Part shown: positions 10,121 through 16,413 of the stretch, piece after piece | How positions within the stretch are numbered: the first letter of the stretch is position 1 | How the letters are laid out: the number at the start of each line of letters is the position of its first letter | NCBI GenBank assembly: GCA_036376135.1 | Contig: DASVAW010000104.1 | Coordinates: 1 to 34,709 of the forward strand | Direction of reading: 5' to 3' | Length of the DNA stretch: 34,709 bases | Source of the DNA: Candidatus Polarisedimenticolaceae bacterium | Lineage (GTDB): Bacteria; Acidobacteriota; Polarisedimenticolia; Polarisedimenticolales; DASRJG01 | Notes under the pieces: model-generated | The model's input: only the letters and a program-made list of their open reading frames with translations | Told to the model about the DNA's origin: nothing | Databases searched by the model: none | Translations under genes and position numbers: made by a program

Positions 10121-11549
10121 GTTCGCGGGCGGCGGTGGAAACGCGGGGGGCAACGGCGGAGGGGGCGGGCGTCGTCGCCGTCGTCGTCGCCGGTTCGGCT
10201 CGCGCGAAGGCCAGCCCTCGGTGGCGCCGAACTTCGAGAACGGACCCCCCTCGGGGGTCGTCCACGAGCTCGCCGGTCCCGCGTGGAATCCGGGGGCGGG
10301 GGGCGGCGGAGCGCGACGGCGGGGACGCCGCCGGCGCGGCGGGTTCGGCGGCGGCGCGCCGCGGCCGGCCATGCCCGGGAACGGCGGCCAGCCGCAGACG
10401 CAGGGACGCCCCGCCGTCGCGGTGCTTCCCGCCGGCGAGCCCGATGTCGAGGTCCGCGGCGTCCTCCAGATCCTGCAGGACGGCAGCGGCTTCCTGAGGC
10501 AGGCGGCCAACGACTACAACCCCGAGCCCGGTGATCCGTGGGTGCCGCGCGAGATCGTCGCCGCGAGCGCCTTCGAGACCGGCGTCGAGCTGACCGGCCT
10601 CGCCCACCCGCCCGACCGCCCCGGCCGCTCGCCGGTCCTCGCGACGATCCGCGAGGTGAACGGCACCGATCCCGCGGCGTGGGCCTCGCGCACGCCTTTC
10701 AAGAACCTCGTCGCCGAGGACCCGACCGAGCGCATCCGCCTCGAGAACGACCCGGCGGACCTCTCCACGCGGGTCGTGGACCTCATCGCCCCGATCGGCA
10801 AGGGGCAGCGCTGCCTGATCGTCGCCCCGCCCAAGGCCGGAAAGACCGTCCTGATGCAGCGGATGGCGAAGGCGATCACCGTCAACCACCCCGAGATCCA
10901 CCTCATCGTGCTGCTCGTGGACGAGCGCCCCGAGGAGGTCACCGACATGCGCCGCAGCGTGCGGGGCGAGGTCGTGGCGTCCTCGTCGGACGAGATGGCG
11001 CGCACGCACGTGGCGGTCGCGGAGATCGTCCTCGAGCGGGCCAAGCGCCTGGTCGAGTGCGGCCGCGACGTCGTGTTGCTTCTCGACTCGATCACGCGGC
11101 TGTCGCGCGCCTACAACAACGAGCAGAAAAGCTCCGGGCGCGTGTTGTCCGGCGGCATCGACGCGCGGACGATGGAGAAGCCGCGGCGCTTCTTCGGCGC
11201 GGCACGCAAGTGCGTGCAGGGCGGGTCGCTCACCGTCATCGGCACCGCGCTCGTGGACACGGGCTCGCGGATGGACGACGTGATCTTCCAGGAGTTCAAG
11301 GGGACCGGGAACACCGAGATCGTCATGGACCGCGGGCTGTTCGAGCGGCGCATTTTCCCCGCGATCGACATTTCGTCGAGCGGGACCCGCAAGGAAGAGA
11401 AGCTCTACGGCGCCGACGAGTTCCCGCGCGTCACCCTGCTACGGCGCGCCCTCGCCCCCCTGCGCGCGCAGGAGGCGATGCAGCTGCTCGTCGAGCGCGT
11501 GGGGCGTTACCCGACCAACGAGGAGTTCCTCAAGAACCTGCTGGGGTAA
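10113..11549 (+). CDS. rho: Transcription termination factor Rho with Gly/Arg-rich N-terminus
   Basis: 478 residues. Rho is a hexameric RNA-dependent ATPase that ends transcription. Visible: the primary RNA-binding fold around 114-185 with GSGFLR (125-129), Walker A APPKAGKT (238-245), LVDERPEEVTDM, LLLDSITRLSRAYN, and the C-terminal GGIDARTMEKPRRFFGAAR and FKGTGN motifs. The first ~105 residues are a low-complexity Gly- and Arg-rich region with eight arginines in a row (20-27) and a second RRRGRRRR patch near 68-75. In the RNA-binding motif the usual aromatic of DGFGFLR is serine (DGSGFLR), and the usual IYV stretch reads PWV. The stop codon lies inside the left arm of the 53-bp inverted repeat. 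ATG at 10113 has AGGAG upstream. Confidence 0.96.
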   Translation: MGEFAGGGGNAGGNGGGGGRRRRRRRRFGSREGQPSVAPNFENGPPSGVVHELAGPAWNPGAGGGGARRRGRRRRGGFGGGAPRPAMPGNGGQPQTQGRPAVAVLPAGEPDVEVRGVLQILQDGSGFLRQAANDYNPEPGDPWVPREIVAASAFETGVELTGLAHPPDRPGRSPVLATIREVNGTDPAAWASRTPFKNLVAEDPTERIRLENDPADLSTRVVDLIAPIGKGQRCLIVAPPKAGKTVLMQRMAKAITVNHPEIHLIVLLVDERPEEVTDMRRSVRGEVVASSSDEMARTHVAVAEIVLERAKRLVECGRDVVLLLDSITRLSRAYNNEQKSSGRVLSGGIDARTMEKPRRFFGAARKCVQGGSLTVIGTALVDTGSRMDDVIFQEFKGTGNTEIVMDRGLFERRIFPAIDISSSGTRKEEKLYGADEFPRVTLLRRALAPLRAQEAMQLLVERVGRYPTNEEFLKNLLG

Positions 11550-11680
11550 ATGGGGACAGCAACCTATTTCGCAACTGGGGACAGTCACCGTATTTCCGCA
11601 AGTCCGTCGCGTGCGCTTCGGGTTTGGGGAAATACGGTGACTGTCCCCAGTTGCGAAATAGGTTGCTGTCCCCATTTACC
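11545..11680. repeat. Perfect 53-bp inverted repeat spanning two convergent gene ends
   Basis: Arms 11545-11597 and 11628-11680 pair at every one of 53 positions, separated by a 30-base centre. Each arm carries two GGGGACAG blocks (11552-11559 and 11577-11584), inverted in the other arm. The left arm supplies the TAA stop of rho (11547-11549). The right arm and centre encode the last ~30 residues of the opposing kinase. Its boundaries and symmetry look like a small non-autonomous palindromic element (REP/MITE class), although no transposase or target duplication is visible here. It could also act as a bidirectional terminator. Confidence 0.92.
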
Positions 11681-14290
11681 CATCACAAGCGCCTCGGTTC
11701 CGCGGTAGGACCAGTTCGCCATCTCGCGCCGCTCGCGCTCGATCGCGGCGAGCTGCGCCGGCGACGGGCGCCAGGACGGGTCCGCGAGGCGTCGCGCGCG
11801 CGCCTCGAGGGCGTTCCACGGAACGACGATCCCGCTGCGGTACGACGTGCGGCCGCGCGCGATCCCCTCGAGGGCCTTCGCCGGATCGGGGTCGGGACCC
11901 TCGAGCCACGCGCGGGCCGTCCAGTATTCGAACTCGTCGCGGTGGAACGCGTCCTCCGCGTCGACGGCGCGGGCGTCGCGCGGGTCGCCGAACAGGACGG
12001 CGTGCGCCAGCCGGATCTGCGCCCCCCACGTGTGGCGCGGCTGCGACGCGAACTCCCCGAGCGCCGCCGCCAGCGGCACGTCGTCTCCGGCGAGCCAGCA
12101 CAGCAGCATCCACTCGTAGCGGTACATCTCCGGCGACGCGGTCGCCCAGAACTCGCGCAGCGTGGCGCGCGCGGCGGCGCGGTCGCCCAGCCGGATCTGC
12201 GTCTCGGCGCGCAGCAGGAGCATCCGCGCGGCGTCCGGCTCGAGCGCCAGGGCCGAGTCGAGCGCGACGAGCGCCGCCGGGGGTGCGCCGGCCTTCAGGT
12301 GGAAGATCGCCGTCCAGTACCACGCGAGCGCGTTGAGCGCGGCCCCCCCCGTTCCGCCGGCGGCCGCCTGGCCGACGATCGCGGCCGCCGCGTCCGGATG
12401 CCCCATCTGCGCCTCCGCCTGCGCGCGGTAGAGCGCCTGGAACACCGCGCGACGCCGCGCGTCCCACGCCTCGGGGTCGAGCCCTCCGCGGTCCGCCGCG
12501 TCGAGGGGGATGCCGCGCGCGGCGTCGAAGCGATACTCGCGTCCGCCTGAGATCCGGACGCGCGCGGTTGCGCCGTCGAGCCGAAGCTCGGAGTGGATCT
12601 TCCGGTCGTAGGGGAGCGGGAGGTAATACGAGGACGGGTCCGCCAGCCGGCCGCCCGCCGTGTAGGGGGGCGCCTGGCCGTGGACGTCCCCGCGCAACGG
12701 CAGCGCGAACGCGACGGGGCGCGGACCCAGCAGGTTGTTCCACGCCACGAAGACCGCGAGCGCGGGTCGCTCCCCGGCCGCGGGGAGGATCGCGACGTGA
12801 TCGGTCTGCCCGGGGTGCTCGTATCCGCCCACGGCCGCACCCGCGCGGGCGGGCTGGGTGAGGACCCGCGACGGGTACTCGCCCGCGTGCGACACCTCGA
12901 CCACCAGCGCCGCATCGCCGCCGTTGGCGTCGGCGGGAACGTGGAGCAGTCGCTTGGGGAGGTAGAACTCCGACTGGAACGGGTAGGCGCCGCGCCCGAG
13001 GATCTCGTGTTGCGCGTCGGCGTCCCAGAACGGCCGTCTCCCCCCGCCGAGCCAATCCACGCGCACGAGCCGCGAAGGGTACTCGCGCGGGACCGGGACG
13101 ACGCGCGGGAGCGGCTCCGGCCAGTGCAGCAGGACCAGGGCGGTCGGATTGAAGGGCCGCCCCTCGGACAGGAGGACGGCTCCCGAGACCCGCGCGTCGA
13201 ACGCCTCCGAGCGGATCCGGAAGCCGGCGCGGGTGATCCACGCGATCCGGTCGACGTCGGTCTCCACGGCGACCGGCGTCGCGAGCCAGGCCCCGGCGGC
13301 GAGCAGCGCGATCGAGACGGAGGCGACCGCGCCGCCGATCCGCGCCCAGCGCCGGTGGGCGAGCTCGGTCGCCAGCCGCGCGCCGAGGAGGGTGCGAAGC
13401 CTCCCCGCCCTCCCGCGGAGCAGCTCGGCCAGCGCCGCGTGCGCGTCGGCGGGACGGCGGTCGGGGTTCTTCTCGAGCAGGCGCACGAGCAGGGCGCGCA
13501 GGCGCGACGGCGCGGCGGAGACGCCGGGGGGCATCACCGGGAGAGGGCGCGACAGGTGCGCGTTGAGGAGATCGAGGTCGGAGGTGCCGAGGAACGGGGG
13601 GGCTCCCGCGAGCATCTCCCACAGGGTGACGCCGACGGCGTAGAGGTCGGTCGCGGGGCGGAAGGTCCGGTCGCCGCGCGCCTGTTCGGGGGAGGTGTAT
13701 TCGGGGGTCCCGACGAACCGGCCCGTCGCGGTGAGCCCGGGGGTGTCGGCCTGGCGGGCGAGGCCGAAGTCGAGGAGCACGACCCGCTCGAGCGCCCCGT
13801 CGTGCCGCTTGGCGAGGAAGATGTTCGCGGGCTTCACGTCGCGGTGGACGATTCCCCGGGCGTGCGCGTGGCCGAGCGCGTCCAGGACGTCGCGGAGGAT
13901 CCGCTCCGCCTCGTCGGCGGGAAGGCGCCTGCGCGCGCGCAGGCGCTGCGCGAGATTCTCCCCTTCGAGGAGCTCGGAGACGACGTAGAAGAGCCCTTCG
14001 GCCTCGCCGATGTCGTAGAGGCGGACGATGCCGGGATGCTGAAGCGCGCGCACGACGCGCAGCTCGCGCCGAAGGCGCTCGACGTCGCGCGTGCCCGCGC
14101 CGGGGAACAGGACCTTCAGCGCGACGCGCTGCTGCGCGACCCGGTCGAAGGCCTCGAAGACCTCCCCGGCGCCGCCGGAGCCGATGGGGCCGACGATCTC
14201 GTAACGCGAGGCGAAGATCGCCCCGTCCGCGAGCGAGGGCAGGCGGAGCAGACGTTTGTTGTCGGACGGCGTGGGCGTCGGATCCGCCAC
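11585..14290 (-). CDS. Membrane-anchored Ser/Thr protein kinase with large C-terminal extracytoplasmic region
   Basis: 901 residues. N-terminal Hanks-type kinase (about 30-295): Gly-loop IGSGGAGEVF, VALKV lysine at 59, HRDVKPAN at 149-156, DFGLA at 174-178, GTPEYTSPEQ at 194-203. One membrane helix lies near 317-337. The ~560-residue C-terminal part would be periplasmic. It has a beta-rich half with aromatic and charged loops (ending near GGREYRFDAARGIPLD) and a TPR-like alpha half (AQAEAQMGHPDAAAAIVGQA; LDSALALEPDAARMLLLRAETQ). The start GTG at 14288-14290 has GAGGGG upstream and TACAAT at 14307-14312; the frame stays open further up but without a credible start. The last ~30 codons run into the 53-bp inverted repeat and stop at 11585. 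The signal sensed is unknown. Confidence 0.9.
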   Translation of the reverse strand: MADPTPTPSDNKRLLRLPSLADGAIFASRYEIVGPIGSGGAGEVFEAFDRVAQQRVALKVLFPGAGTRDVERLRRELRVVRALQHPGIVRLYDIGEAEGLFYVVSELLEGENLAQRLRARRRLPADEAERILRDVLDALGHAHARGIVHRDVKPANIFLAKRHDGALERVVLLDFGLARQADTPGLTATGRFVGTPEYTSPEQARGDRTFRPATDLYAVGVTLWEMLAGAPPFLGTSDLDLLNAHLSRPLPVMPPGVSAAPSRLRALLVRLLEKNPDRRPADAHAALAELLRGRAGRLRTLLGARLATELAHRRWARIGGAVASVSIALLAAGAWLATPVAVETDVDRIAWITRAGFRIRSEAFDARVSGAVLLSEGRPFNPTALVLLHWPEPLPRVVPVPREYPSRLVRVDWLGGGRRPFWDADAQHEILGRGAYPFQSEFYLPKRLLHVPADANGGDAALVVEVSHAGEYPSRVLTQPARAGAAVGGYEHPGQTDHVAILPAAGERPALAVFVAWNNLLGPRPVAFALPLRGDVHGQAPPYTAGGRLADPSSYYLPLPYDRKIHSELRLDGATARVRISGGREYRFDAARGIPLDAADRGGLDPEAWDARRRAVFQALYRAQAEAQMGHPDAAAAIVGQAAAGGTGGAALNALAWYWTAIFHLKAGAPPAALVALDSALALEPDAARMLLLRAETQIRLGDRAAARATLREFWATASPEMYRYEWMLLCWLAGDDVPLAAALGEFASQPRHTWGAQIRLAHAVLFGDPRDARAVDAEDAFHRDEFEYWTARAWLEGPDPDPAKALEGIARGRTSYRSGIVVPWNALEARARRLADPSWRPSPAQLAAIERERREMANWSYRGTEALVMGKWGQQPISQLGTVTVFPQTRSARDGLAEIR

Positions 14291-14425
14291 GTTCCCCTCG
14301 TCGGGGATTGTACGGACGTCGGGCGGGCGTGGCTCTGCCGAACTTCGCCGATGGCGCGACGGCATCGAGGCCGACGGGCGCGCTCCCGTTCCGCTAGACT
14401 TTCCCGGTTTCCCGTGGAGGCGTCG

Positions 14426-15583
14426 GTGCTCGATCTCTCGAACAAGGCCAAGGGCTTCTCCGAATCGGTCATCCGGGAGATGACCCGCCTCGCCCGCGCG
14501 CACGGGGCGATCAACCTCGCGCAGGGGTTCCCGGACTTCGGCGCCCCCGAGGCGATCAAGGAGGCCGCGCGGCGTGCGATCGCGGACGACCTGAACCAGT
14601 ACGCGATCACGTGGGGGAGCGCGGGACTGCGGGGGGCGATCGCGGCGAAGGCGGAGCGGCTCTACGGGATGGAGGTCGATCCGGAGCGGCAGGTCACCGT
14701 CACCTGCGGGGCGACCGAGGCGATGATCGCGTCGATTCTCGCGATCGTCGATCCCGGGGACGAGGTCGTCGTCTTCGAGCCGTTCTACGAGAACTACGGC
14801 CCGGACGCGATCCTCGCGGGGGCGGTTCCGCGGTTCGTGCCGCTGCGGGCCCCCGACTGGTCGTTCGACCCCGAGGAGCTCGCCGCCGCGTTCAACTCCA
14901 AGACGCGGGGGATCATCCTCAACACCCCCAACAACCCGACGGGGAAGGTCTTCACCCCCGAGGAGCTCGAGGCGATCGCCGCCCTCTGCCGCAAGTGGGA
15001 CGTCGTCTGCTTCTCCGACGAGATCTACGAGCACATCCTCTACGACGGCGCGCGGCACGTGCCGATCGCCACCCTCGAGGGGATGGAGGACCGCACGGTC
15101 ACGATCAACGCGTTGTCGAAGACCTACTCGGTGACCGGATGGCGCGTGGGATGGGCGATCGCCTCCCCCGAGCTGACCGCGGGGATTCGCAAGGTCCACG
15201 ACTTCCTGACCGTGGGGGCCGCGGCGCCCCTCCAGGAAGCGGGGGTCGTCGCGCTGGGGATGGAGGAGGCGTACTACGCGAAGCTGGCGGTGGAGTACCG
15301 CGAGCGGCGGGACGTGCTCGTCGCCGGCCTGCTCGACGCGGGGTTCCACTGCACGCCGCCGGGCGGCGCCTATTACATCCTGGCCGACGCGTCGGCGTTC
15401 GGCGTGAGCGACGACGTCGCCTTCGCCCGGAAGATGGTTGCGGAGGTCGGGGTCGCTCCGGTGCCGGGCTCGTCGTTCTTCCGGGAGCCGTCGCGAGGCC
15501 GGTCGCTCGTGCGCTTCGCGTTCCCCAAGAAGCTCGAGACGCTCCGTGCGGCGGTGGAGCGGCTCCGGGGCCTGGCGCACTGA
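14426..15583 (+). CDS. Class I/II PLP-dependent aminotransferase (kynurenine/methionine-type)
   Basis: 385 residues. Fold-type I aminotransferase with AINLAQGFPDF (28-38), YAITWGSAGLR (59-69), NTPNNPTGKVF (166-176), SDEIYEHILYD (197-207), and the PLP lysine in NALSKTYSVTGWRVGW (K232). The FPDF start and SKTYSVTGWRVGW block match the branch of kynurenine-oxoglutarate, glutamine-phenylpyruvate and methionine aminotransferases (YbdL/KAT type). Several amino acids are plausible donors, and no pathway neighbour narrows this down. I chose GTG at 14426 because GGAGG ends six bases before it; a GTG five codons earlier contains that same GGAGG. TAGACT at 14395-14400 is a -10-like element. Divergent from the Ser/Thr kinase gene. 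Confidence 0.92.
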   Translation: MLDLSNKAKGFSESVIREMTRLARAHGAINLAQGFPDFGAPEAIKEAARRAIADDLNQYAITWGSAGLRGAIAAKAERLYGMEVDPERQVTVTCGATEAMIASILAIVDPGDEVVVFEPFYENYGPDAILAGAVPRFVPLRAPDWSFDPEELAAAFNSKTRGIILNTPNNPTGKVFTPEELEAIAALCRKWDVVCFSDEIYEHILYDGARHVPIATLEGMEDRTVTINALSKTYSVTGWRVGWAIASPELTAGIRKVHDFLTVGAAAPLQEAGVVALGMEEAYYAKLAVEYRERRDVLVAGLLDAGFHCTPPGGAYYILADASAFGVSDDVAFARKMVAEVGVAPVPGSSFFREPSRGRSLVRFAFPKKLETLRAAVERLRGLAH

Positions 15584-15589
15584 AAGGGT

Positions 15590-15658
15590 GAAAAGGGGTC
15601 AGGCCCCTTTTTCCTTCAGAATCCGGCTCTGTAAGAAAAAGGGGTCTGACCCCTTTTC
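15590..15658. repeat. Nested inverted repeat (double palindrome) between convergent genes
   Basis: Arms 15590-15613 and 15635-15658 pair at 23 of 24 positions across a 21-base centre. Each arm is itself a hairpin: AAAAGGGG-TCAGG-CCCCTTTT and AAAAGGGG-TCTGA-CCCCTTTT. The right arm abuts the stop of the reductase gene (15658-15660), and the left begins seven bases after the aminotransferase stop. With C-plus-T runs after either stem, it could terminate both convergent transcripts. The form is that of a dispersed palindromic element, different in sequence from the 53-bp repeat. Confidence 0.9.
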
Positions 15659-16413
15659 TAGCCGATCAGGACGGCGCCGCCGTTGACGTTGAGGATCTCG
15701 CCGGTGATGAACGTCGCGAGGTCCGACGCGAGGAAGAGGACCGCCCCGGCGATCTCCTCGGGGGTTCCCACCCGGCCGAGAGGGATCGATTTCAGGATGT
15801 CGTGGCCGCGGGGGCCGAGGAGGTCGTCGCGGGTCATGTCGGTGACGACCCACCCCGGGGCGACGCAGTTCACGAGGATCCCCGAGGTCGCAAGCTCGGC
15901 GGCGAGCGATTTCGTGAGGGAGATGATCGCCCCCTTGCTCGCGGCGTAGTGCGAGCAGAACGCCTCCCCGCGCTGGCCGGCGGTCGAGGCGATGTTGACG
16001 ATCCGCCCGTACCCCGCCTCCTTCATGTGCGGGACCGCCTCGCGGATGCAGTGGAAGGTCCCCGTGAGGTTGATGTCCATCATCTCGCGCCACTCGCCGT
16101 CGCTCATCTCCTCGATCGGGGAGCTGCGCCAGATGCCCGCGTTGTTCACCAGGATGTCGACGCTCCCGAACTTGGAGACGGTCTCGTTGACGAGCATCTC
16201 CGCCTCGTCGCGGCGGGAGACGTCCGCGGCGAGGGCGAACGCCTCGCCCCCGAGGCGCTCGATCTCCTCCACGACGAGGGCGGCGCTGGGGGACTCGACG
16301 CGGTAGTTCACCGCGACGCGCGCCCCGGCACGCGCGAAGGCGAGGGCGCACGCGCGCCCGATGCCGCGCGCGGCTCCGGTGACGAGGACGTTCCTGCCGT
16401 CGAGCTCGATCAT
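15658..16413 (-). CDS. Short-chain dehydrogenase/reductase, FabG-like
   Basis: 251 residues, standard classical SDR length. Motifs: NAD(P)-binding TGAARGIG (12-19), DILVNNAG (86-93), catalytic Asn in DINLTGTF (113-120), Ser143 in NIASTAGQ, Tyr156 and Lys160 in SHYAASKGA, and the C-terminal ITGEILNVNGGAVLIG. These point to a 3-oxoacyl-(ACP or CoA) reductase-like enzyme, but classical SDRs vary too much to name the substrate. Its ATG overlaps the stop of rlmN (ATGA, 16410-16413), and GGAGAA lies upstream inside rlmN. The two genes are therefore co-translated although their known roles are unrelated. Confidence 0.9.
   Translation of the reverse strand: MIELDGRNVLVTGAARGIGRACALAFARAGARVAVNYRVESPSAALVVEEIERLGGEAFALAADVSRRDEAEMLVNETVSKFGSVDILVNNAGIWRSSPIEEMSDGEWREMMDINLTGTFHCIREAVPHMKEAGYGRIVNIASTAGQRGEAFCSHYAASKGAIISLTKSLAAELATSGILVNCVAPGWVVTDMTRDDLLGPRGHDILKSIPLGRVGTPEEIAGAVLFLASDLATFITGEILNVNGGAVLIG

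Follow-up and report, generated by a model that had tools for sequence, protein, structure and literature searches.

A nested palindrome between convergent genes of a Candidatus Polarisedimenticolaceae bacterium is probably a gene-less, REPIN-like pair of transposase end-repeats

The 67-base element at positions 15591–15657 of the window (the whole 34,709-nucleotide stretch of Candidatus Polarisedimenticolaceae DNA analysed here) is, with a probability of roughly 0.87, a non-autonomous REPIN-like miniature element made of two inverted end-repeats of a RAYT-class, IS200-like HUH transposase, a full copy of which was found on C30, another contig of this genome. Direct evidence was obtained for the repeat family, for the full element on C30 (repeat, gene, repeat) and for the element-free junction in relatives, and it is because the repeat family, the transposase flanks and the element-free gene pair occur together that the element was assigned as a gene-less MITE/REPIN-like copy.

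The element was composed of two facing near-palindromes with the 21-bp core AAAAGGGGTCAGRCCCCTTTT. The left 30-bp repeat unit was located on the forward strand at 15591–15620 (core hairpin 15591–15611) by arm pairing and by the 30-bp consensus described below, and the right, inverted unit on the reverse strand at 15628–15657 (core hairpin 15637–15657) by arm pairing, the palindrome check and the consensus; arm pairing also defined the 7-nt spacer at 15621–15627 that separates them. An earlier note had described 15590–15658 as a 24-bp inverted repeat with one mismatch, each arm being itself a palindrome, which can fold as one long stem or as two adjacent hairpins, and both the coordinates and the description were correct. 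As read from the sequence, 15590–15613 is, apart from one mismatch in 24 bp, the reverse complement of 15635–15658, and the pairing reaches arms of 31 nt (15590–15620 and 15628–15658) that are 90% complementary. Of the two 21-mers, the right one is perfectly palindromic about a single base and the left one contains one G·T mismatch. The outermost positions, 15590 and 15658, are each one base beyond the conserved unit. The RNA fold of 15580–15670 gave −57.5 kcal/mol as compared with −28.5 in shuffles (z −8.1), and the DNA fold gave −31.6 (z −7.7). Single-stranded 15591–15657 folded into one long hairpin in both the RNA and the DNA folds, and each unit also folded alone, at −10 to −14 kcal/mol as RNA (−10.4 to −12.6 for the separate arms).

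The window's own genome (G000, 4.38 Mb in 179 contigs) contained 47 matches to the 21-mer at ≤2 mismatches, corresponding to 38 distinct places, since one near-palindromic site may be counted on each strand; the reversed control gave 0 matches and shuffles of the window a mean of 0.00. The stretches fetched first held 34 units in 27 elements (both transposase flanks counted as one element), namely six inverted pairs including that of the window, 20 singles and one transposase copy. A 30-bp consensus, AAAAGGGGTCAGGCCCCTTTTTCTTNCARA, whose outer edge is sharply defined, was common to the 33 units for which sufficient flank was available, and according to the column counts GGGGTCAG was present in 32 of them, one unit having T in place of the A. 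No strong motif was detected outside the unit, the outer columns −4 to −1 of these 33 units carrying 0.11–0.43 bits. Core matches at ≤1 mismatch in L025, L036 and L050–L055, all without A/T flanks, were dropped. In the element on contig C50 (L026:2999–3061) the outer flanks CGGGAAGTAG and CTACTTCCCG were themselves inverted repeats, the inverted repeat therefore being about 10 bp longer than the usual unit.

Two Y1_Tnp (IS200-like) genes were found in the genome, on C30 and C179. The gene at C30:11733–12437, whose transposase is present in a single copy, was bounded on both sides by the window's repeat in inverted orientation, with a perfect match of 27 nt. The stop codon of this gene sits within the right-hand repeat. 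The HUH motif of the C30 protein is NHAH and its tyrosine motif YVERNP. Both proteins scored above the cut-off of the Pfam Y1_Tnp model; the best NCBIfam model for both was REP_Tyr_transpos, yet the scores (77.7 and 70.7 bits) were below its cut-off of 80. The two transposases shared 33% identity, and their C-terminal parts matched no Pfam family at E ≤ 10.

These data bear on whether the element could be a native terminator, or a chance palindrome, without any mobile origin, which is highly improbable. Such an origin would agree with the frequency of hairpins at convergent gene pairs and with the likeness of single units to simple terminators. In addition, four sites (L243–L246, at C30:17917, C39:41208, C158:48996 and C167:80529) consist of the perfect palindrome AAAAGGGGCCTGGCCCCTTTT alone, the inner repeat part being absent; these could be decayed units or plain terminators, and as possible plain terminators they count against the mobile-element reading. 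Nevertheless, the dispersed copies have sequence in common beyond the hairpin, the chance expectation in the shuffles and the reversed control was zero, and the sequence was absent at ≤2 mismatches from 38 of the 41 genomes of the class, while the copy flanking the transposase gene already contradicts an origin of this kind.

The position of the element between convergent genes, also claimed in the earlier note, was confirmed. A class I/II aminotransferase gene on the forward strand (14414–15583; stop codon TGA at 15581–15583) ends 7 bp before the element, and an SDR (FabG-like) oxidoreductase gene on the reverse strand (15658–16413) abuts it with its TAG stop codon at 15660–15658, position 15658 thus already belonging to this codon. 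The same convergent gene pair was found without the element in three relatives, G001, G002 and G004, in which the aligned genes were 14, 32 and 65 bases apart, respectively, versus 92–104 in the window. Fourteen junctions were tried in these three relatives; a second element junction, L044, was alone contiguous, in all three, and was likewise element-free. For L024 both flanks were on one G001 contig, about 640 bp apart, and for the remaining junctions at most one flank was found or the flanks were on different contigs. The genomes with the empty site belong to other genera and are about 68–78% identical in these genes, so that neither the exact target nor a duplication can be read from them. 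The idea that the element supplies the stop codons was rejected at the window junction, as the relatives, which have no element there, show gene ends at the corresponding place; it may apply to some of those flanking stops in the genome that overlap element bases (11 of 40).

A second element of the same class and of another family is located in the window at about 11548–11677 (ends set by eye), with the unit TAAAT[G/A]GGGACAGCAACCTATTTC and inner GGGGACAGTCACCGTATTT units. It contains nested GGGGACAGCAACC and GGGGACAGTCACC units, comes after the stop of a gene scoring as Rho, the transcription termination factor (10221–11549), and is entered by a convergent Ser/Thr kinase reading frame that ends at 11585. 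The unit TTAAATAGGGACAGCAACCTATTTC, which also forms this palindrome, flanks the transposase at C179:82258, whose motifs are NHVH and YVELNP. The two palindromes had been called unrelated, and their sequences do differ, but both are transposase end-repeats of one class and both contain GGGGWSAS. As end-repeats of this kind, they represent two repeat families of that class, each with its own transposase. Cores of both families were found within about 240 bases of the first base of contigs C43, C100, C148, C61, C63, C90, C133 and C172, perhaps as a result of assembly breaks at repeats.

Gene contexts were determined with our own codon-score gene finder, not a published annotator; both flanks of each G000 transposase were taken as one count, and elements at contig ends (three of the first family, one of the second) were kept outside the counts. 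Among 24 informative elements of the first family, 15 were at convergent, seven at tandem and one at divergent junctions and one was in a reading frame. The 22 informative elements of the second family among those fetched (20 stretches chosen among the matches listed, plus the window and L007) comprised 17 convergent, three tandem and one divergent, with one in a reading frame. As compared with a background of 165 junctions from eight 20-kb stretches and the window (176 genes; 21 convergent, 121 tandem, 23 divergent), the convergent enrichment over 21/165 was significant for both families (Fisher 4e-7 and 7e-10), and the bias persisted when only tandem gaps >14 bp were regarded as tolerant (6e-5 and 2e-7). 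The L243–L246 palindromes (one convergent, three tandem) were outside these tests; their addition leads to 16/28 convergent.

In the genome-wide check of copy positions that the earlier note had proposed, the copies examined in G000 were thus non-random with respect to gene ends. The suggestion that convergent ends are preferred landing sites stood for this genome (15/24 and 17/22 versus 21/165) and did not prove universal: near-identical copies in two related genomes, G006 and G008 (33 rows, transposase flanks counted separately), were mostly tandem, with 22 tandem, eight convergent, one divergent and two at contig ends, against a background of 36 tandem, five convergent and 12 divergent junctions. 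The preferred place therefore holds for the genome of the window, and may stem from targeting or from selection.

A stop codon was found ≤7 bp from 22 of the 24 first-family elements, versus 6% expected if elements were spread uniformly over intergenic gaps, and all 10 tandem insertions, both families taken together, were at the stop of the upstream gene, not at the start of the next. TAA and TAG together made up 33 of 40 flanking stops, whereas in the genome stretches they accounted for 55 of 128 (Fisher 1e-5). It is conceivable, albeit unlikely, that the copies are placed not by selection but by a transposase that truly prefers targets at gene ends, such as sites around stop codons, as the proximity and the stop-codon usage would indicate and as the second family, which behaves likewise with another transposase, would support. 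The outer columns, at most 0.43 bits, revealed no clear target motif, however, and the uniform expectation ignores selection against other sites. Furthermore, the element bases overlap 11 of the 40 flanking stops, so that the element itself may create some of this proximity, and short convergent gaps are common anyway. Their median was 39 bp in a first small background and 3 bp in the larger one, so that short gaps on their own were not taken as a signal. Tolerance of 3′ gaps accounts for part of the placement at stop codons, and target choice or terminator use may contribute.

The recruitment of the palindromes as bidirectional terminators, the other suggestion of the earlier note, stays a putative role: a terminator consensus scan of 11300–16000 found none, and the T run of only 4–5 is paired into the stem. 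That the element is a domesticated repeat, a reading that agrees with a mobile origin, and now acts mainly as a bidirectional intrinsic terminator, its copies persisting by stopping head-on transcription, is nonetheless a secondary possibility to be kept in mind, though somewhat unlikely. Each unit forms a G+C-rich hairpin that has both A and T runs and folds as RNA with the energies given above, and the convergent enrichment, the stop within 7 bp of nearly every first-family element and the location of all 10 tandem copies in the tests at the upstream stop would suit such a role. Apart from the scan and the short, paired T run, this role is opposed by the mostly tandem copies of G006 and G008 and by the similar pattern that tolerance of 3′ gaps yields.

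Homologues of the C30 transposase numbered 486 in named genomes, the best 80 of which were kept; many of these 80 were from Planctomycetota, in addition to Nitrospirota, Deltaproteobacteria and others. A similar repeat, such as AAAAGGGGACATTCTACTTTT, AAAAGGGGACAGGCTACTTTT or AAAAGGGGTCAGGCTACTTTT, was found in the left flank of 64 of the best 80 of 486, and in 62 of the same 80 the two flanks shared some type of inverted repeat, not always with this motif. The NH.H motif was NHFH in 70 of them, versus NHAH in the C30 protein. In comparison with AAAAGGGGTCAGGCTACTTTT, the window's repeat has CCCC where that form has CTAC (GTAG when read on the opposite strand), and this replacement makes the repeat self-complementary; in G008 mostly a CACC form was found. 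The order of the change toward the palindromic form is our inference.

Within the 41 genomes of the class, a C30 transposase homologue at E ≤ 1e-30 was present in four, including all three that carry the element; two of the element-bearing genomes are congeners, and some of the homologues at this threshold have other end-repeats. A nearly identical 21-mer flanks transposases at G006:C15:25124–25974 (L165) and G008:C135:3320–4160 (L178), with an inner repeat part that differs (mostly CGCC or CGCTGC). These two transposases are 62% identical to each other and only 31–34% identical to that of C30, and hence the repeat and the transposase do not track each other simply. Since a distant relative (L134) also has its own palindromic form of the repeat, in addition to L165 and L178, the palindromic ends may have more than one origin.

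The most likely course of events would be that single-strand HUH chemistry gave rise to the pair, as a derivative of the C30 element that has no gene, and spread it. Judging from its family, the C30-type transposase would recognise single-stranded hairpins and would copy or move the pair via single-strand cleavage, a step suggested by work on TnpA-REP proteins in the available part of PMC8266576. The copies would then be found at stop codons, mostly in short convergent gaps, mainly because such sites tolerate insertion; a sequence preference at gene ends possibly helps the placement, and a terminator effect, if any, would be secondary. A more elaborate scheme, in which two RAYT-class families independently target convergent stop codons and their ends, derived from a GTAG-bearing, non-palindromic ancestor, turned into near-perfect palindromes that serve as two-way terminators, appears doubtful.

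A striking palindrome is thereby explained as the trace of transposase-linked repeats in a little-studied bacterium. The two families in one genome, with sharp ends and element-free junctions, provide a clean data set on the reasons why repeats gather at gene 3′ ends (target choice, tolerance or terminator use), and the stop-codon placement shared by both families is the part worth following.

Literature searches with GGGGTCAGACCCC, AAAAGGGGTCAGACCCC, GGGTCAGACCC, GGGGTCTGACCCC and GGGTCTGACCC, covering titles and abstract openings and spellings other than GGGGTCAGGCCCC, returned nothing on bacterial repeats. Bidirectional intrinsic terminators resemble the element in that convergent genes are separated by a G+C-rich hairpin bearing A and T runs; they differ from it in that the element is part of a dispersed repeat found also on both sides of a transposase gene, that its T run is short and that the scan did not recognise it. 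With IS200/IS605 elements and their miniature derivatives it shares the Y1 HUH transposase domain, end hairpins and gene-less copies, whereas the C30 type has one transposase copy with a C-terminal extension, a score of 21.9 bits on the IS200 model (cut-off 55) and terminal inverted repeats in place of subterminal hairpins. According to the available part of PMC6006769, most such transposases belong to TnpAY1 subclass 2.1, with a C-terminal helix-turn-helix (Bac_DnaA_C, HTH_23 or HTH_28), the motifs NHVH or NH[YF]H and YIELNP or Y[IV]HLNP, and no REP-like hairpins found nearby. Assignment to this subclass was rejected for C30, as its NHAH and YVERNP do not agree with these motifs; NHVH and YVELNP of C179 are closer.

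The term REPIN denotes two REPs in inverted orientation together with a RAYT (PMC3116915), and RAYT genes lie between two inverted REPs (PMC2817692). As far as the available parts of these two papers describe them, REPINs share with the window's element two close inverted hairpin units, a RAYT gene with the same units and many copies, and differ from it in that the window's repeat is long and A/T-capped, is present in tens of copies, not hundreds, and has no fixed GTAG at the hairpin foot, this absence being the reason for the name REPIN-like. A REP tagged with GTAG, or GT[AG]G, at the hairpin foot was considered and rejected: GTAG or TAG was found in the outer flanks of only some copies, the column information there is low, and much of the TAG is the stop codon of the neighbouring gene. 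A close likeness is that to the TIRYT/TIRtron TIRs of Di Nocera et al. 2013 (PMC3733652), who reported, in the available part of that paper, RAYT genes with terminal inverted repeats, including in Acidobacteria. Some of these TIRs contain GGGGWSAS, some are self-complementary, and they are dispersed as singles, dimers and groups; REPs are described there as mainly located between convergent and unidirectional genes, near 3′ ends, often giving a TAG stop. The genome of the window and its repeat sequence were not found in the same part of that paper. In common with these TIRs are the C30 IS200-like tyrosine transposase gene between inverted repeats, the GGGGWSAS motif (here GGGGTCAG and GGGGACAG) and the dispersal of the window's family as singles and dimers; the core of the window's repeat, unlike theirs as described there, is an almost perfect palindrome. 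The element thus fits the known RAYT/TIR class, within which its nearly perfect palindrome is a variant.
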